53,840 nucleotides of DNA from Fragilaria crotonensis (Eukaryota > Bacillariophyta > Fragilariophyceae > Fragilariales > Fragilariaceae): assembly GCA_022925895.1 (NCBI GenBank), contig JAKSYS010000423.1, positions 1 to 53,840 of the forward strand, read 5' to 3'. The notes beneath the pieces were generated by a model. It was given only the letters and a program-made list of their open reading frames with translations. It had not been told where the DNA came from and ran no database searches. Below, piece after piece: positions 13,496 through 51,423 of the stretch. Numbering within the stretch: position 1 is the first letter of the stretch; each line of letters starts with the position of its first letter. A program made the translations under genes and the position numbers.

Positions 13496-14747
13496 CTAGT
13501 GTCTATTTGACTTCTGTCTTTAATTAAAGACAAATCTTTAATTAAAGACAGTTTGGAGGGTATGCCGAAAATGGACTTCCCGCAACTATCATGAAAAACG
13601 ACGATTACCGTCGTGTTCAGCATATTCTCAAACCCTGTGGCACATGACAGTTTCCTTTAACTCTCACAATAACGCCATGAATTCCACAATCCAAAGAAGA
13701 GCGATGAATTTTTGATGAGTTTTCTCAATTTATTCTCATTAGTTAAATTACGTAGAATTTATACTGTATGCCACGACAGATTGCTAATTCATGACACATT
13801 TTGACCCTATGGTTAGATCAGACACCTGTCGCTTTTGACCGAAAACGAGGGCATAAATGTATTCATTATATAACAATAAGTGTAGGTCAAATGGGAGATG
13901 TGTTTTAATTCGCGGTATCAACGAAGTACCGTTGACTGGAAACATTCGATCAACAGCAAAAAAAACCGTTGAAAAATTATGTAGAATATATACGATACCC
14001 TACGCCAGATTTTCTGATTCAAGGCACATTTTGACCCTATAGTAAGATCATGCTCCTGTCACTTTCAACCAATAGTGAGGTCTCCAACGTCTTCGGCATA
14101 TATTCATTGTCGCAAGGGCATATACAAGGTTTGTCTGAAGCACAGGTACGTAAGCAATATGATGGAATAGAAAGTGTTCGATTCTCAAAAATCAACCGTA
14201 GAAAACTCATGTAGAATATGTACTATCCTCCTCGTCAGATTCCTGTGGTCATTACTCATTTTGATCGTGTGATTTGATAATACTCGTGCCATTTTCAACC
14301 AAAAGTGAGGTCACCGTCATATTCTTCATCTTTTACATAACGCCGGGGCACGTGGGAGGTTTGTCTGAAAGTTAAGTATTTACGCAGCAGTATTCGTTGG
14401 AAAAGAGCTCAATTTAGAAAGGGATCGTTGAAAAAATTCATGTAGAATGTATACCATGGCCCACGACAGATTTCCGCGTGCCGCAGAGTATTGATACGGT
14501 GAGCTAAAACGTAAAATTATGTACCAGCAACCAACCAACATGATTGCATGAACTAACATTTGAAGGAAAAAGTGCTTATTTGTGGCGTAATTCATATCGG
14601 TTGTCGGCCATTGTTCAAGTCAATTTTTGCGTTGCCGTGGTATCGATTGCACGAAGGGCCGTCTTGCAAACGTACGAAAAAATCTGTCTTTAATTAAAGA
14701 TAATTTTGTCTTTAATTAAAGATTGAGCCCAGACGGATAGACACTAG
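13496..14747. mobile_element. Non-autonomous piggyBac-like element bordered by CTAG
   Basis: A 1252-bp element. The ends read CTAGTGTCTAT inward on both sides (13496 and 14747). Each end has two copies of the palindrome TCTTTAATTAAAGA (13517-13530 and 13535-13548; 14687-14700 and 14709-14722), the outermost about 21-25 bp from the end. The right 110 bp closely resembles the right end of the piggyBac element at 48330-51423 (shared GGCCATTGTT, GGTATCGAT, CCGTCTTGCAAA and TACGAAAA), and both left arms carry AAACCCTGTGG at similar positions. There is no transposase gene; the centre is a tandem array of about 230-bp units. It is probably mobilised in trans. Confidence 0.8.
13700..14500. repeat. 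Tandem array of about four 230-bp degenerate units
   Basis: The word TGTAGAAT followed by TATAC or similar recurs at about 13752, 13981, 14211 and 14442, a spacing of 229-231 bp. Each unit continues with a CACGACAGATT-like block, then CATTTTGACCCTATGGTTAGATCA, a CTGTC.CTTTTGACC block, and a run ending in CCGTTGAAAAA. Units are clearly diverged from each other. The array fills the centre of the CTAG-bordered element and codes for nothing recognisable. Confidence 0.7.
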
Positions 14748-42410: not shown

Positions 42411-45400
42411 ATGCTTGGCCGAGTGCTCTTACCCCTGGTTCTTAGAGCGCTCGTTGGCCATCCTCCTTCTACCACGGCGTTCCCAGCACCCAGCTATGGC
42501 GACTCATGTCTTACACAACCCATCCATCGGCAGCTTTTCGGTGCACCGACCTTCGACCCCACACCTCAAGTCACCGCCCTTCTGCAAAATCATCTCCTTT
42601 CGCCATCATCTCTCGGCCGCCTTCTTCGCACCGTCCTCCTTCGGTACCTTTTCTCCCGCCTATTCATCTGTCTTCGCATAGTGTCTCTACTCCCATCGTG
42701 CCTCCTCCATATCTTCTTCCCTTCTCCGCAAGGAACTCACACACCCATCGTCTCGCTCCCATCCTTCATCCCTCTTCATGTCGCTCCATCTGCTTCTCCT
42801 TCTGCTCCTTCCCCATCTTTCGTCTTTCCCCTTCGTCTCACCTCGGGCATGTCCTCTCTCCCTCTGGCTCTCAATGCGCACATCGCTCGCTCCGACTTTG
42901 ATCCTGATTTCGTGGCTGCGCTTCTCTCCCGCACTCCCGGCGCCGACGTTGTCGATATCATTCTCGACACTGGCTGCACCTTCTCCATAACGCCCGACAA
43001 ACGCGATTTCGTCACCTACGAACCCGCTCACGTTAGCCAGGTCCAGACCGTAAATGGCCCTACTGCTTTGGTGGGCACCGGTCTCGTTCGCTGGACTCTG
43101 ATCAGCGAGGACGGCCAAACAATGGATCTTCTTATCCCATGTCATCACGTCCCTGCCTCATCCGTTCGCCTGCTGTCACCCCAAGATTTCTGCCAGTTCC
43201 ATGGTTTCGATCGCTCTCAAGATCATTTCGGGGGAAATTCCAACTACTTTTGGATGCACGCTGATTCTCAGCGCACCCGCTTCCAGTGTCCCATTGACCC
43301 ACGGTCCAATCTCCCCGTCGCTCTTGCCAAAACTCCTTGCAATCCGGGGGGGTGCATTGCTCTTGAAAGCTCTACTCCTGAATCGCCGGGTCCTCCTTGC
43401 GCATCTTGCCAGCGTCACAGCCTCGTCAGTCTATCCGTCCTCGACGAAACCAATCAGAACATCACCGCCGCTCAAAAGGATCTCCTACTCTGGCACTTTC
43501 GTCTCGGCCATCTTGGCTTCTCGCACCTTCAACACTTGATGCGACCTCGAACAATCGAAGACCTCCGCTCGAAAATCAAGTCCGAGAAACCAATTGTCAT
43601 TGATCCATGCATTGTGCCCAAGAATCCGTCAACACGCACCTGCAAGCCACCACTCTGTGCATCATGCCAGATCGCTCGCGCCAAACGACGCCCAACTGAT
43701 GTCTCAACCACTGTCGTGCACCAAGAATCCATCCTCAAGGAAGAGAATCTCGCTCCTGGGTCGCGCGTGTCCATCGACCAATATGAATCAGCCGTACGTG
43801 GTCGTCTCGCCACCACAAAAGGACGCGAAGCTTTCGGCCATAAGTATGCGGGCGGTACCATCTTCTGCGATCACGCAAGCGGCTACATCCAATGCTTCCA
43901 TCAGGTGTCTCTACGGACTGCCGATACCCTCGTTTCAAAACGTGCATTTGAACGGTCTGCCAAGTCATGCGGCGTCAAGATAAAATCCTACCACGGTGAC
44001 AACGGCGTTTTCAAAGCAAAAGAATTCACAGACTCCATCACGCAGTCGGACCAAGAACTACAATTCTCAGGAGTCGGCGCTCATCATCAAAATGGAGTCG
44101 CCGAACGGGCCATTCGCACCGTAACCGAGAAGGCTCGCACGATGATGCAACACTCCTTCATCCACTGGCCTGACGAATTTCAGGTACAACTCTGGCCCTT
44201 TGCGTTGGACTATGCTTGCTGGCTTCACAACCACACTCCACACAACTCTCATGGTTGGGCCCCGCTCGAGCTGTTCTGTGGAACGCAGGTTGATTGTCAA
44301 CATTTACAGCGAGCTCGCGTCTGGGGGTGTCCTTCTTATGTTCTCAGCCCAACTCTACAAGATGGCAAGAAAATTCCGAAATGGGCACCAAGAGCGCGTC
44401 GTGGCCAATTTCTTGGTTTCAGCCAGACTCACTCTTCCATGATCGGTTTGATGCGAAATGTACAGACAGGCTCCATCACGCCCCAGTTTCACGTGGTCTT
44501 CGATGAACTCTTCTCTACCGTCCACAGTCTCGATGAAGACGACCCCACATGGGTCGAATTGTTCGTATCGGAGCGCGATTACTATGGCCCCGATGAAGAG
44601 GAAGAAGACGCCGATGCCATCGCCTTTCCAGATATCGATCCCTCCTGGCTTCCCATCTCCGAAATTCACCAGCATCCTACAGAGGAGTCCACAACCGCTA
44701 TCCCCACTGCCGTCATTGACAGTCGTACCGTACACCGAACAAGCACTGAAGCCACTATTGATGATAATCCTCCCCCTTCCGCGCCAATCGATGTCACAAT
44801 TTCAGAGAGCACTGACGATGGAGTCGACATCCAGAACGAAACCGCCAGATATGATAACCCTGACGAGGATCACATTCCACTCGAGACCCCACTTCGCTCC
44901 GCACGCGTTCGTCAGCCAAACCGAAGAGTCTTTGGTGACGAATGGACCAACCACACCGTCCAATTAACTCCGACATCTCGTACCATGCTCGGGCACATCA
45001 TTCCCAGTCTCACACACGATGACCTCTTCCTCCACTCCCTCGATTGGGACGCTCCGTTCTCCTCCGAGTATGGGTCTCTCCACAGCCTCAACCTCCTTCA
45101 CGTCGATCCTTTCACCAACGAAGTCGATTGGGTTCATCCATTTACCCTGGCAGCAAAAGCATCCAGTGCCGATACTCCTACCTTTCGTGAAATTCTGTTA
45201 CTGCCACCTGACGAAGTCGAACTCTGGTACGAGTCCATGGACATCGAGCTCCAGGCATTGCACAACAAGAAGACCATGACAGAAATCAATCGTGTCGACG
45301 TCCCACACGGCAAGCAAATCGTCAAATCCACCTGGGCCTTCAAGAAGAAGAGACGGCCAAATGGAGAAATGTACAAACGCAAATCACGTTTTTGTATTCG

Positions 45401-46763
45401 AGGGGATCTTCAGATACTCGACGACAACGACAGCACATTTTCTCCTGTGGTCGACTGGAGTACCGTTCGCCTGCTCTTCATCATCTGCGTCGCACTCGGA
45501 ATGAAGAGTCGAACCATCGACTTCAATTCGGCTTTCGTCCAGAGTGACTTGCCCGAACCCATCTATCTCGAGTTACCGCCCGGTTACGGCGTTGTCGGTG
45601 AAGACAAGGTCTATCGCGTCGACAAATCCCTCTACGGTGACGTACGCGCTGCCCGCCTCTGGTACAAGCACCTTACCATGGCACTCCTCACCAAGCTTGG
45701 ATTCGTCAAAAGCGAGATTGATTCCTGCTTATACCTCCGCGACAACTTGATTTTTGTCTTCTATGTTGATGATGGCATCATCATCAGTCCCAACGACGAT
45801 GCCATTTTGAGTTTCATTGACGAGCTTCGCGTATGCGGTTTCGATCTTGACATTGAAGCCGACTACGCTGGGTATTTGGGAGTTGACATCATCACACAAC
45901 CCGATGGCACGATCCTGATGGCGCAATCCGGCCTCATCGCTCGTATTCTTACCGACTTTGGTCTCAGCGATTCCGCGTCCTCGAAGGTCACTCCTGCTTC
46001 CGAAGTTCTTGGACCCTTTAAGGCAAGCCCTCCTTTTGACGAGCACTTCAACTATCGCTCTGTCCTGGGCAAAATCCTCTACGTCTCTTCCAATACTCGC
46101 TGCGAAATCACATTGGCAAATCATCAGTGTTCCAGGTTCTCGATCGATCCAAGGTCACCTCACGGAGTCGCACTCAAACGGATTGGACGATATCTACTCG
46201 GTACCCGCGACAAAGGCATGATCATAAAGCCTAGCAAGGACCTCACTCTCGACTGCTACGCCGACGCCGACTTCTGCGGTCTCTTCTCCACTTCGGATCC
46301 AGATGACCCAAAATCCGTCAAATCCCGCTCTGGTTATGTCATCACTCTAGGGAAGATTCCCGTATCTTGGGGAAGCAAATTGCAGACCGAGACCGCCCTT
46401 TCTACCATGGAGGCTGAATACATCTCCCTTTCCCAGGCCTTGCGCGTTCTCTTACCCCTTCGTATCATTCTCGAAGAAGTCTCCAGTCATCTTCATCTCA
46501 AGCCCGATCCACGTTCCGTAATCAAGTCCACCATCTTCGAAGATAACCAAGCCTGCCTCCTTCTGGCTACTTCTGATCCACCCAAGCTTACTCCGCGGTC
46601 AAAGAGCATCGCCGTCAAATACCATTGGTTCCGCGAACACCTTGAGCCGGGCGTGATCGACATCAAACCCATCGCTTCTGAAGACCAACTCGCAGACATC
46701 TTTACAAAACCACTGGCTGCGATCAGTTTTCTCAGGTTGCGCAAACGATTGCTCGGCTGGTAA
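42411..46763 (+). CDS. Copia Pol polyprotein, intact
   Basis: 1450 codons, same frame as the end of Gag, starting with the ATG that directly follows Gag's TGA. Domains in order: aspartic protease IILDTGCTFSITPD (about residue 183); GAG-pre-integrase zinc region LLLWHFRLGHLGF with CASCQIARAKRR; integrase with SIDQYES, YHGDNGVF and NGVAERAIRT (D, D, E); reverse transcriptase RTIDFNSAFVQSD and the catalytic FYVDDGIII (about 1117); RNase H LDCYADADFCGLF, LSTMEAEYISLSQA and EDNQACLLLA, ending QLADIFTKPL. All catalytic residues are present, so the enzyme part appears functional. Confidence 0.95.
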   Translation: MLGRVLLPLVLRALVGHPPSTTAFPAPSYGDSCLTQPIHRQLFGAPTFDPTPQVTALLQNHLLSPSSLGRLLRTVLLRYLFSRLFICLRIVSLLPSCLLHIFFPSPQGTHTPIVSLPSFIPLHVAPSASPSAPSPSFVFPLRLTSGMSSLPLALNAHIARSDFDPDFVAALLSRTPGADVVDIILDTGCTFSITPDKRDFVTYEPAHVSQVQTVNGPTALVGTGLVRWTLISEDGQTMDLLIPCHHVPASSVRLLSPQDFCQFHGFDRSQDHFGGNSNYFWMHADSQRTRFQCPIDPRSNLPVALAKTPCNPGGCIALESSTPESPGPPCASCQRHSLVSLSVLDETNQNITAAQKDLLLWHFRLGHLGFSHLQHLMRPRTIEDLRSKIKSEKPIVIDPCIVPKNPSTRTCKPPLCASCQIARAKRRPTDVSTTVVHQESILKEENLAPGSRVSIDQYESAVRGRLATTKGREAFGHKYAGGTIFCDHASGYIQCFHQVSLRTADTLVSKRAFERSAKSCGVKIKSYHGDNGVFKAKEFTDSITQSDQELQFSGVGAHHQNGVAERAIRTVTEKARTMMQHSFIHWPDEFQVQLWPFALDYACWLHNHTPHNSHGWAPLELFCGTQVDCQHLQRARVWGCPSYVLSPTLQDGKKIPKWAPRARRGQFLGFSQTHSSMIGLMRNVQTGSITPQFHVVFDELFSTVHSLDEDDPTWVELFVSERDYYGPDEEEEDADAIAFPDIDPSWLPISEIHQHPTEESTTAIPTAVIDSRTVHRTSTEATIDDNPPPSAPIDVTISESTDDGVDIQNETARYDNPDEDHIPLETPLRSARVRQPNRRVFGDEWTNHTVQLTPTSRTMLGHIIPSLTHDDLFLHSLDWDAPFSSEYGSLHSLNLLHVDPFTNEVDWVHPFTLAAKASSADTPTFREILLLPPDEVELWYESMDIELQALHNKKTMTEINRVDVPHGKQIVKSTWAFKKKRRPNGEMYKRKSRFCIRGDLQILDDNDSTFSPVVDWSTVRLLFIICVALGMKSRTIDFNSAFVQSDLPEPIYLELPPGYGVVGEDKVYRVDKSLYGDVRAARLWYKHLTMALLTKLGFVKSEIDSCLYLRDNLIFVFYVDDGIIISPNDDAILSFIDELRVCGFDLDIEADYAGYLGVDIITQPDGTILMAQSGLIARILTDFGLSDSASSKVTPASEVLGPFKASPPFDEHFNYRSVLGKILYVSSNTRCEITLANHQCSRFSIDPRSPHGVALKRIGRYLLGTRDKGMIIKPSKDLTLDCYADADFCGLFSTSDPDDPKSVKSRSGYVITLGKIPVSWGSKLQTETALSTMEAEYISLSQALRVLLPLRIILEEVSSHLHLKPDPRSVIKSTIFEDNQACLLLATSDPPKLTPRSKSIAVKYHWFREHLEPGVIDIKPIASEDQLADIFTKPLAAISFLRLRKRLLGW

Positions 46764-48329: not shown

Positions 48330-51300
48330 CTAGTGTCTAAACGCCCGCTGTCGTTAATTAAAGATGGTCCACTGGTGAAATCTTTAATTAAAGATCAGTT
48401 TTGGCCCTTACTCAACTTCTTCATTTTTCATTTTTCACCAAAATTGAGACGGCCAATGTGTTTTCCATTGAATTAAACCCTGTGGGCCAAATGGGTGCTT
48501 CTTAGTTAGCGACAGTTCCTGAATAATGCTTTAGAAAGCAAAACTGGAGCCCATTTTCGGTGAGTTTTTGGGGTCGAAAAATAACACGTTTTGAGTACAT
48601 GCCTACGCAGCCTACACAGGGTCAGGTCCGTCGAGGCCTCAATTGACTCATCAAGTTCATCATCTTCCACTCGGATTGAGCCAAAACACAGAGTTACAAT
48701 TGCATTGATACGCTTTTATAGAAGAGGGTTGTTACTTCGGTACATATCCAGTTTTCATTCTTTCGTGAGTGATTCCAAGGCCATTGAGCCTCATCCAGAA
48801 AGAAAAAAATCCTTGTCTGACGAGCGCCACTATTTCTTTGACACCGCAATTCTTGATTCCGTGCTGTGATCAGCGTGTTGTTGACCATGCCACTTCAACC
48901 CAACGACCAAAGAGTTGTTGCTGGTGCTTGTGTTGAAACGAAGGCCATGTTTGTGACGGCCATGGCTGAGTGCAGTCGTCGCTTTGGCACCAACGCGAAG
49001 ACAAAAGTAGTCCCAGGAGTTGTTGTGTCAGTCAGCCATGAAAGTCCTCCTGGCCGAGCCCGTGCTACTACATTCATAATTGCAAATTATTACTTCGGTC
49101 CGAATGATGTGAAACAAGGTAAGGTGAATATTCGAAGCGTCGCGGCTGTCGAATGTTCCCAGTTGCATGAGGAGCTCAAAGAAATTCTGCGTCAACGTGA
49201 ATCACCAATCAACAATATTGCGGTGTCACCTCCAGCTGCCAATGCCCCGAACATAATGGCACATCAACCGTCACAAGCAGCAGCAAGAGGAGATGACGGC
49301 AGCAGTGCTACTACTCCTACTACTGCAAGCAGTATCAGGACACCACCAGGAACAACAACAACAACAACTACAACACCGGCAGCTGATGTTCGCACCACCA
49401 ACGATGACGAAGGTAGTCCCACACCTTTGATTTTTCATGAGACTGAATGGTTTGAAGCAGATCCGACAGTATTGGAACAAGACATGAATGGTCCAGTAGT
49501 CCGAAGGTTGTGGTCAATTCGAGATCATCGCACTGGTACCTTGTTGGAACAAGATTGCGATGAAGGTACATTGATGACACGACTCGACTATTTTCTGTGC
49601 ATGTTTCCTCCGCAAGCACTTCTGTCCATTGTCCGGTTGACAACTCGACAACTTACTCTTTTATCAAAACCAGCAACATCGAAAGGTGAGATTGTGAAGT
49701 TCTTTGGAGTGATTGTTTTGATAACTAAGTTCGAATTCGATGATCGTCGAAGTCTCTGGGCAACAACGGCGACGTCGAAATATATTCCGGCGCCATTGTT
49801 TGGAAAGATGATGTCACGCAATCGCTTTGATGATTTATGGCGATGTATTCGATTCAGTGATCAGCCATCAGTTCGTTCTACTGACATGACGGCAGAACAG
49901 TATCGTTGGAAACTTGTCGATGATTTTGTAAGGGAGTTCAATGATCATCGAGCATCAACATTTTCTCCATCGGAGAGAATTTGTGTTGATGAGTCTATCT
50001 CTCGCTGGTACGGAAAGGGAGGCCATTGGATAAACCATGGGCTGCCCATGTACGTTGCTATCGATCGCAAGCCCGAAAATGGATGCGAGATTCAGTGTGC
50101 ATCCTGTGGACAAAGTGGTGTCATGATTCGATTGAAGCTTGTAAAGACAGCCGAGGAGGAAGCTCGCCACATTTCATTGATGGATGAAGCTGCATCCGGT
50201 GAAGTCATGTCTGATCAAGGACTCTTACATGGGGCGAAGGTGATGAGAGACCTACTCATGCCATGGATGCATTCCGACAGAATTGTATGCGGTGATTCGT
50301 ACTTTGCTTCGGTTCCAGCGGCAACGATGATGATGAGGTATGGAATGCGATTTATTGGGGTAGTGAAATCTGCGACTCGACAATATCCTATGGCTTTCCT
50401 ATCACAAGTTGAATTGAACAATCGTGGCGACCGAAAAGGGATGGTGACAAGAGGTGGAGATACTGCTGGCGATCCGAAATTGCTGGCTTTTGTCTGGATG
50501 GATCGACAGAGACGATATTTCATTGCAACGTGTTGTTCGCTTGCTGAGGGGAGTCCGTACAAGCGACAGCGATGGAGACAGCTTGATGATTCATTGGAGG
50601 AGGACGAACATGCCGATCCGCAGCGTGTGGATTTAGTGGTGCCTCAGCCAAAAGCAGCCGAAACTTACTATGAGACATGTGCTATGATCGATCGTCACAA
50701 TCGACATCGACAGGATACGCTTGGAATTGAGAACAAGCTTGTCACACAAAGTTGGTCGATGCGGGTCAACTTGACTATTCTTTCGATGATAGTGGTTGAC
50801 ACTTGGCTTGCATACAAACAATGCAGGAGCGAGCAGGTGGAGAATCAGAAGAGTTTCTACACATTGCTGGCAGAAGAACTCATAGATAACAGATTGGATG
50901 CGGTGAATCCTCGAGATCGCTTTTCGACGCCAAGGAGGGAAGAGTTTGCACAATTGATTTATGACCGAACCGGCGATCCCAGAGCTGGAGTATCAGCTCA
51001 CCTCACCCCAACAAAGAGAAAGAAGCAAACGGCTATGGGGGAGATCACTTCGTTTAGTCTTCAGGGCCGATGCCGAGTCTGCAAGTCTCTGACGACGTTC
51101 ATCTGCTCATTGTGCGAAGATCAATTGGAGTGCATGACCACAATTTGGATTTGTCATACCAAGAAAGGAAAACTGTGCTTTCCCACTCACCTGGAGTCAT
51201 GCCATGGTGAATAATTAATAGGTTTCAATTGTTACTTTATGATTGTTATGCTTGATGTGTGATGATATTGACGACGGCAATTGGCCATTGTTGATGTCGA

Positions 51301-51423
51301 ATTTTGTGTTGGTGATGGTATCGATGTACATCGACCGTCTTGCAAAACATACGAAAATAGCCATCTTTAAAAAACGACAGATTTGTCTTTAATTAAAGAT
51401 ACCCCCGGGCGTTTAGACACTAG
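48330..51423. mobile_element. piggyBac-like transposon bordered by CTAG
   Basis: A 3094-bp element. The left end CTAGTGTCTAAACGCCCG (48330-48347) and right end CGGGCGTTTAGACACTAG (51406-51423) are perfect 18-bp inverted repeats including the CTAG on each side. Subterminal palindromes TCGTTAATTAAAGA (48351-48364) and TCTTTAATTAAAGA (48381-48394) are mirrored on the right at 51386-51399 and, with two mismatches, at 51364-51377. The outermost sits about 21-24 bp from each end. It contains one intact transposase gene. It separates the methyltransferase pseudogene from the Timeless gene. Confidence 0.88.
48887..51214 (+). CDS. piggyBac-type (DDE_Tnp_1_7) transposase
   Basis: 775 residues from ATG 48887 (MPLQPNDQRVV); the frame is open slightly further upstream but this Met is a natural start. 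The N-terminal 170 residues are low-complexity (Thr, Ala, Pro). The catalytic core shows the three family aspartates: ERICVDESISRWYGKGGHW (about residue 366), RIVCGDSYFASVPAA (about 468) and YYETCAMIDRHNRHRQDTLG (about 600), followed by the helical SWSMRVNLTILSMIVVDTWL. The C-terminal Cys-rich domain, CRVCKSLTTFICSLCEDQ, then C and CHTKKGKLCF, with HLESCH, is the zinc-binding end typical of piggyBac transposases. No stop or frameshift, so it may be active. Confidence 0.93.
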   Translation: MPLQPNDQRVVAGACVETKAMFVTAMAECSRRFGTNAKTKVVPGVVVSVSHESPPGRARATTFIIANYYFGPNDVKQGKVNIRSVAAVECSQLHEELKEILRQRESPINNIAVSPPAANAPNIMAHQPSQAAARGDDGSSATTPTTASSIRTPPGTTTTTTTTPAADVRTTNDDEGSPTPLIFHETEWFEADPTVLEQDMNGPVVRRLWSIRDHRTGTLLEQDCDEGTLMTRLDYFLCMFPPQALLSIVRLTTRQLTLLSKPATSKGEIVKFFGVIVLITKFEFDDRRSLWATTATSKYIPAPLFGKMMSRNRFDDLWRCIRFSDQPSVRSTDMTAEQYRWKLVDDFVREFNDHRASTFSPSERICVDESISRWYGKGGHWINHGLPMYVAIDRKPENGCEIQCASCGQSGVMIRLKLVKTAEEEARHISLMDEAASGEVMSDQGLLHGAKVMRDLLMPWMHSDRIVCGDSYFASVPAATMMMRYGMRFIGVVKSATRQYPMAFLSQVELNNRGDRKGMVTRGGDTAGDPKLLAFVWMDRQRRYFIATCCSLAEGSPYKRQRWRQLDDSLEEDEHADPQRVDLVVPQPKAAETYYETCAMIDRHNRHRQDTLGIENKLVTQSWSMRVNLTILSMIVVDTWLAYKQCRSEQVENQKSFYTLLAEELIDNRLDAVNPRDRFSTPRREEFAQLIYDRTGDPRAGVSAHLTPTKRKKQTAMGEITSFSLQGRCRVCKSLTTFICSLCEDQLECMTTIWICHTKKGKLCFPTHLESCHGE

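Follow-up and report, generated by a model that had tools for sequence, protein, structure and literature searches.

A piggyBac-type transposon of the diatom Fragilaria crotonensis belongs to a clade bordered by CTAG target duplications

The piggyBac element of Trichoplusia ni (T. ni) and piggyBat target TTAA. In the accessible part of PMC7351741, piggyBac chemistry is 4-nt staggered, the stringency for TTAA is ascribed to the way the first T of the unpaired target contacts its last A, and this T0-A3 contact is suggested to be impossible with any other base at T0. Published departures from TTAA, as far as the available portions of the sources go, are minor or isolated. Pokey of Daphnia duplicates TTAA at 88% of sites, plus TTAT, ATAA and 0.85% CTAA (PMC3849761); the oyster element PiggyBac-2_Cvir has a reported TATG duplication, alongside a few other variants, nearly all other elements surveyed having TTAA (PMC10813416); non-TTAA flanks in seven bee species were called possible mutations (PMC10140906); and PiggyMac of Paramecium, a piggyBac-family enzyme, acts at sites described by TA (PMC8086355). 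For diatoms, the excerpt of PMC2806351 mentions a weakly piggyBac-related element with no target description, and those of PMC5963040 and PMC9860276 contain nothing on piggyBac target sequence. We recognized no CTAG-specific piggyBac in searches of an open-access library, Repbase and subscription journals lying outside this search. Here, we describe an element at positions 48330-51423 of contig JAKSYS010000423.1 of Fragilaria crotonensis (GCA_022925895.1), the whole 53,840-nt stretch being referred to as the window (contig C363 in an assembly of 62.1 Mb and 881 contigs). We hold with high confidence that it is an autonomous cut-and-paste piggyBac-type (DDE_Tnp_1_7) transposon that prefers CTAG as its target.

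The element begins with CTAGTGTCTAAACGCCCG (48330-48347), the exact reverse complement of which lies at 51406-51423, yielding the perfect 18-bp inverted ends with outermost CTAG that an earlier note on this DNA had described. These ends consist of a 14-bp terminal inverted repeat (TIR) plus the palindromic CTAG, with exact inverted identity inside CTAG ending at 14 bp, and can be written CTAG-TGTCTAAACGCCCG ... CGGGCGTTTAGACA-CTAG. The bases outside are GTAT on the left and AGAG on the right, also as the note had read them. It had left open whether CTAG is duplicated target or belongs to the TIR; in our data, the 4-bp target duplication is CTAG itself, which lies outside the inverted repeat.

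A search of the 62-Mb genome for TGTCTAAACGCCCG with at most one mismatch gave 97 matches (50+47), compared with 6 (1+5) in a reversed control, which excludes chance as the source of the shared ends, a possibility that the note had called less likely. Although the search pattern itself does not contain CTAG, most copies read were bordered by it. We fetched 48 loci (L001-L048; 10 of the 97 matches, each with one mismatch, lay outside this set), kept the 39 in which the pattern recognized both ends, and dropped nine with one or no end. Together with four copies of the second-element type described below and eight other lineages, these made 51 rows, which were merged by shared flanks into 46 distinct sites; L052, L053, and L055-L058 stand outside this tally, and their recognized ends carry CTAG.

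Identical tetramers flank the element at 40 of the 46 sites. At 36 these are CTAG/CTAG, and the remainder are CTTG/CTTG (two sites, L008 and L025), CTAA/CTAA (L011), and TTAG/TTAG (L016). The four variant duplications are each one substitution from CTAG and are direct repeats flanking the same copy, so a TIR could not have given them. Among the variants, substitutions occur at positions 1, 3, and 4, one or more times at each, and position 2 is T throughout. TTAA, which the note had named as a flank that would contradict its reading, was looked for and occurs as the tetramer at none of the 46 sites. One allele, L029 (CTAG/CCAG), has a changed right copy and falls within a merged site counted as CTAG. 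Outward from CTAG, the next two bases tend mildly toward T and then A (46% and 49% of flanks, respectively, at 35 sites). Near-identical copies at different sites, such as L009 and L011 (99.9% identical), speak for recent movement.

Element-free counterparts were sought in the genome for 33 of the 46 sites, using 50 bp of each flank joined by one tetramer, in searches of 12, 13, and 16 sites (eight of the last repeated). Because only 40 candidates were scored per search, a missing counterpart proves nothing; for repeats with multiple hits, two to four counterpart copies were read. Counterparts were found for at least nine of the 33 sites. Five of these nine show a clean single CTAG, the outcome that the note had proposed as proof of a CTAG duplication; one is consistent with it (L022), whereas two are footprint-like (L004, L031) and one is ambiguous (L041). 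The note's contrary outcome, a different duplication in empty sites, was looked for in this same set. The counterpart of L026 on C209 has one CTAG, is identical at 204 of 204 positions, and is allelic, as indicated by 99.4% identity over 1296 bp; this exact allelic site may be a never-filled allele. Each of the four copies read opposite L023 has one CTAG, as do two of the four read opposite L012. The counterparts of the C827 lineage (two copies, 99.0%) and the C764 lineage (203/204 and 204/204) are clean. One empty relative of L022 (L074) has a single CTAG, and the filled L022 copy carries an extra CT beside the right CTAG. Opposite L004 lies a CTAGAG allele (99.4% over 2707 bp), and opposite L031 a CTAGCTAG allele (98.3% over 944 bp). 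Insertion into either sequence with a 4-bp duplication would have kept the extra bases, and the filled copies are without them, so excision with leftover CTAG is the simpler account; from these two cases, we infer that CTAGAG and CTAGCTAG may be excision footprints built from CTAG.

Were the duplication confined to the central TA (2 bp), with the outer C and G coming from the element or from target preference, most copies would have the same letters, and other non-TTAA piggyBac insertions do keep the middle T and A in the available portion of PMC3849761. We nonetheless reject this reading as very unlikely, since L011 and L016 each have an altered outer base in both tetramers, the CTAGCTAG allele holds two full tetramers, and piggyBac chemistry, in what we have of PMC7351741, is 4-nt staggered. 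A second reading, the note's alternative, places CTAG within an 18-bp TIR, with the true duplication absent or elsewhere. Both ends of the window element do carry CTAG in a perfect inverted repeat, and a single copy cannot discriminate because CTAG is palindromic; however, four copies have the same non-CTAG tetramer as a direct, not an inverted, repeat, and empty sites keep one CTAG, including the 204/204 allele. These non-palindromic duplications and the empty allele refute what is a highly improbable reading.

Several observations weigh against a CTAG-duplicating piggyBac element. Tetramers are unmatched at 6 of the 46 sites, and among nine single ends outside the tally, CTAG occurs at five and the other four carry AGAG, TCCC, GTAG, and GTAG (C592). 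Only one of the three allelic empty sites shows the exact single CTAG, so seamless excision is not the general pattern in these data. Three relatives of L041 differ by 7 bp beside the site; the relatives of L031 (L069, L070), repeat copies that are ~90% identical, have no CTAG; and at the aligned place, the other two copies opposite L012 (L061/L062) have CTAT and the second relative of L022 (L075) lacks CTAG. AlphaFold modeling of the transposase core with 15 sequences was weak (mean pLDDT, the predicted local distance difference test score, 52.9).

The intact piggyBac-type transposase gene that the note had reported holds up, with an open reading frame (ORF) that runs from an ATG at 48887 to a stop at 51212-51214 with no internal stops. 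By its sequence, the product is homologous to piggyBac superfamily transposases (DDE_Tnp_1_7, PF13843; E 9e-37, 127.6 bits against a cut-off of 22.4). A sequence search of solved structures (E <= 1) returned only piggyBat (2.8e-9) and T. ni piggyBac (3.3e-6), a profile search gave piggyBat 1.2e-9 and piggyBac 1.5e-7, and at E <= 0.001 these two were the only solved-structure matches. The protein has the three-aspartate (DDD) catalytic triad of the RNase H-like fold. Its third Asp, in AMIDRHN (residue 601), was matched by eye to what we take to be D447 of piggyBac; the available part of PMC7351741 numbers the T. ni triad D268/D346/D447. A set of Cys and His residues that is invariant across 11 aligned sequences points to a C-terminal Cys-rich domain like that of the superfamily. 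AlphaFold modeling of the full-length protein was poor (mean pLDDT 47.6), and in fold comparison piggyBac and piggyBat stand out among the matches despite the weak structure model; target-contacting residues were mapped by alignment and by eye only. Outside the Pfam match, we observed a conserved N-terminal region of ~95 residues (48887-49180; AKAxHVT...ECxRRYGxNAKTK...), which is the most confident part of the first AlphaFold model.

The ends add to this assignment, with short TIRs and internal palindromic repeats as in the piggyBac superfamily. Perfect palindromes of >=12 bp lie near an end in nine of 10 elements examined (C827 has none), and palindromes are centered on TTAATTAA in eight of 10, C764 having CCTTATATAAGG only. 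With its 4-bp target duplication that is not TTAA, the window element is a member of the piggyBac superfamily and not a TTAA piggyBac.

A protein search with the window transposase found related frames at 34-100% identity. Besides that of the window, we read the ends of ten lineages, which are 46-60% identical to the window transposase (C3, 60%; C827, 54%; C93, C108, C386, C691, C166, C123, C764, and C608, 46-50%). In eight of these lineages, both ends read CTAG|TGTCTA, with the rest of the TIR diverged; C691 has CTAG on the left and CTAC on the right, and C608 has CTAG at the single end read. Frames are unbroken in eight lineages and broken in C123 and C608. Four pairs gave dN/dS ratios of 0.12, 0.12, 0.11, and 0.14, indicating purifying selection, at dS values of 0.9-1.8 that are partly saturated. 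The second element of the window (13496-14747), to which the note had attributed the same borders, indeed has CTAG|TGTCTA at both ends, and its right-end 142 bp is 76% identical to the end of the window element. Its longest ATG frame has 71 residues, it is similar at its ends to the C3 lineage, and two other near-full copies are present in the genome (C763 and C27, 97% and 95%).

Outside this genome, a scan of viral contigs with the single window protein found no close relatives, and a scan with the alignment found one, L136 (IMGVR_UViG_3300049043_000356), which shares 59-65% identity with seven of the 11 aligned proteins and 47-53% with the remaining four. Its left end alone was recognized, as CTAG|TGTCTA, and its contig either comes from a virus into which the element has inserted or is eukaryotic DNA classed as viral. 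A scan of genome contigs found L137 (JAHDDY010000183.1), a 3.4-kb, very GC-rich contig of a Rhodobacteraceae metagenome-assembled genome (MAG), with a transposase 41-48% identical to the CTAG clade. This contig is probably a eukaryotic contaminant foreign to that MAG; no TGTCTA ends were seen on its short length, and it is uninformative on target choice.

Searching the genome by Pfam returned 84 matches and brought to light a second piggyBac-like group that the window-protein search had not listed (L112-L115; C6, C66, C280, C560, C59, C145, C227, C239, C230, C24). Its TIR is CGGATATTGGACCACCC ... GGTGATTTYTAARCCG. The 4-bp flanks match in nine of ten elements (TTAT, ATCT, GTAT, CGAT, GTAT, ATAC, ATAC, ATTT, and ATAG; the tenth has unmatched TATT/ATTT), and four more read by eye have ATAC, AAAA, GTAG, and a single mismatch, TTCT/TTTT. 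In total, tetramers match in 12 of 14 elements, with central TA in eight of those 12, and none of the 14 has a CTAG or TTAA duplication. L112 matches PF13843 at 4.9e-57, and a sequence search of solved structures with it returned no piggyBac chain. Like the CTAG clade, this group has a homologous catalytic core (23-25% identity, DDD aligned) and 4-bp duplications; unlike it, the group has the CGGATATTGGACCACCC TIR, loose AT-rich duplications, and no omega-loop insertion. That one group is strict for CTAG and another loose in the same genome indicates that CTAG specificity goes with the transposase clade. A preference imposed by the host (chromatin, methylation, or repair) would fit with all CTAG copies but L136 having been read in one genome; we reject it as very unlikely, given the varied tetramers, none of them CTAG, of the second group and given that the window holds fewer CTAG than TTAA sites (65 vs. 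112). That the element is Helitron-like or otherwise unrelated, with CTAG as a terminal motif (Helitrons end in CTRR, and literature on CTAG with target-site duplications, judged by titles and abstract openings, in part concerns Helitrons or Helentrons), is of negligible probability and refuted by inverted repeats at both ends, a duplicated target, and a PF13843 DDD transposase with solved-structure matches to piggyBac and piggyBat only.

Table 1. Features of the window and the evidence for each
Feature	Positions	Strand	Evidence
CTAG, left copy of the target-site duplication	48330..48333	.	Sequence; duplication status from variant tetramers, empty sites, and site tally
Left 14-bp TIR, TGTCTAAACGCCCG	48334..48347	+	Sequence; inverted-identity check
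Imperfect subterminal palindrome GTCGTTAATTAAAGAT around TTAATTAA; presumed site of the transposase cysteine-rich domain (CRD)	48350..48365	.	Sequence; function by likeness to T. ni piggyBac (PMC7351741, accessible part)
Perfect subterminal palindrome ATCTTTAATTAAAGAT; presumed transposase CRD site	48380..48395	.	Palindrome search; function presumed
Intact piggyBac-type transposase gene, 775 residues including ATG	48887..51214	+	ORF; Pfam PF13843; PDB matches
First catalytic Asp, ICVDES, residue 367 counting from 48890; counterpart of piggyBac D268	49988..49990	+	Alignments
Omega-loop region SRWYGKGGHWINHGLP; candidate target-specificity element	50000..50047	+	Alignment; putative role from PMC7351741, accessible part
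Second catalytic Asp, IVCGDSYF, residue 469; counterpart of D346	50294..50296	+	Alignments
Third catalytic Asp, AMIDRHN, residue 601; counterpart of D447	50690..50692	+	Invariant in alignment; D447 assignment by eye
C-terminal Cys/His-rich domain: C728, C731, C739, C742, C755, C763, H767, H772	51071..51205	+	Invariant alignment columns
Perfect subterminal palindrome TCTTTAATTAAAGA, near right end	51386..51399	.	Palindrome search
Right 14-bp TIR	51406..51419	-	Sequence; inverted-identity check
CTAG, right copy of the target-site duplication	51420..51423	.	Sequence; variant tetramers, empty sites, and site tally
Non-autonomous relative, CTAG|TGTCTA at both ends	13496..14747	.	End reading; alignment; ORF check

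Other observations concern the surroundings of these elements. Directly upstream of the window element lies a Copia-type (RVT_2) retrotransposon frame of 1450 residues (42411-46763). The C764 element sits in a repeat paired ~7.4-7.5 kb apart on several contigs (C614, C869, C405), probably the long terminal repeats of a retrotransposon. At L039 (C408:49659), a copy of 748 bp has inserted precisely into the CTAG bordering another member's end (...CGGGAGGCTAGACA[CTAG]), creating a tandem pair; similar tandem insertion at TTAA is reported for Pokey in the available portion of PMC3849761. Finally, an extra two to four bases (AG, CT, CTA, TAAG) stand between CTAG and the TIR at L019, L022, L044, the right end of C691, and L020, with L054 also considered. 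One idea is that these are mis-repaired or partly trimmed 4-nt CTAG flaps of the previous site. Most of the stretches are pieces of CTAG, and the idea fits several of them, not all; chance is also plausible because the flanks are CTA-rich.

By likeness to T. ni piggyBac, transposition of the window element would begin with cuts at the TIR and the formation of 4-nt hairpins from the flanking CTAG, which would then be opened to 5'-CTAG overhangs, their polarity being taken from T. ni piggyBac. As in that system, the enzyme itself would choose the target, and the transposon 3' ends would be joined across a 4-bp stagger to another CTAG, repair leaving CTAG on each side. At the donor site, the complementary CTAG overhangs could be closed exactly, leaving one CTAG, or with leftover CTAG bases. 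The omega-loop region is six residues longer in the window protein than in the second group, and we propose only that this clade-specific insertion may set the C/G preference. Tentatively, and at somewhat less than an even chance, the whole clade may have switched its outer target base pair from T/A to C/G through an omega-loop extension acting on the unpaired tetramer, with no change to the 4-nt stagger or the central TA. The direction of such a change, implied in the note's suggestion that this lineage has changed specificity, is our inference; the elements that we read include no TTAA-using relative. Likewise, no TTAA-using piggyBac was found in the genome, where one may exist, the second group being covered by 14 elements.

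TTAA is treated as a piggyBac hallmark, and a clade that prefers C...G at its outer positions provides a natural experiment on the T-A contact explanation. The several unbroken copies of the clade offer aligned proteins with different specificities for swaps and could yield an integration tool directed at another four-base sequence. In annotation, TTAA alone should be no ground for accepting or rejecting a piggyBac-like element. If the omega-loop switch is true, target choice would be set by a short, swappable loop; together with the loose second group, this would make TTAA one solution among several in the superfamily and would run against the suggestion, in the accessible part of PMC7351741, that no base other than T at T0 allows the T0-A3 contact.

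Compared with piggyBac and piggyBat, the window element shares a DDD transposase of the same fold with a Cys-rich C terminus, short TIRs with internal palindromic repeats, and a 4-bp target duplication. It differs from them in its CTAG target and in its conserved N-terminal region of ~95 residues. At the position that we match, by eye, to piggyBac N440, the CTAG clade has a variable E/D/S/T. N440 contacts a target A, according to the available part of PMC7351741. The TIR of the clade starts TGTCTA, whereas those of animal piggyBacs start CCC/CAC in the accessible portions of PMC10813416 and PMC10140906. PiggyMac is domesticated and excises internal eliminated sequences (IESs), and is, unlike the window element, no mobile element with its own TIRs. 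PiggyBac-2_Cvir departs from TTAA as the CTAG clade does, but is one transposon type, and the accessible portion of PMC10813416 describes no empty sites for it. Pokey, too, belongs to the piggyBac superfamily and has some non-TTAA duplications with the central TA kept; it remains mostly at TTAA, whereas in the diatom clade CTAG is the norm.
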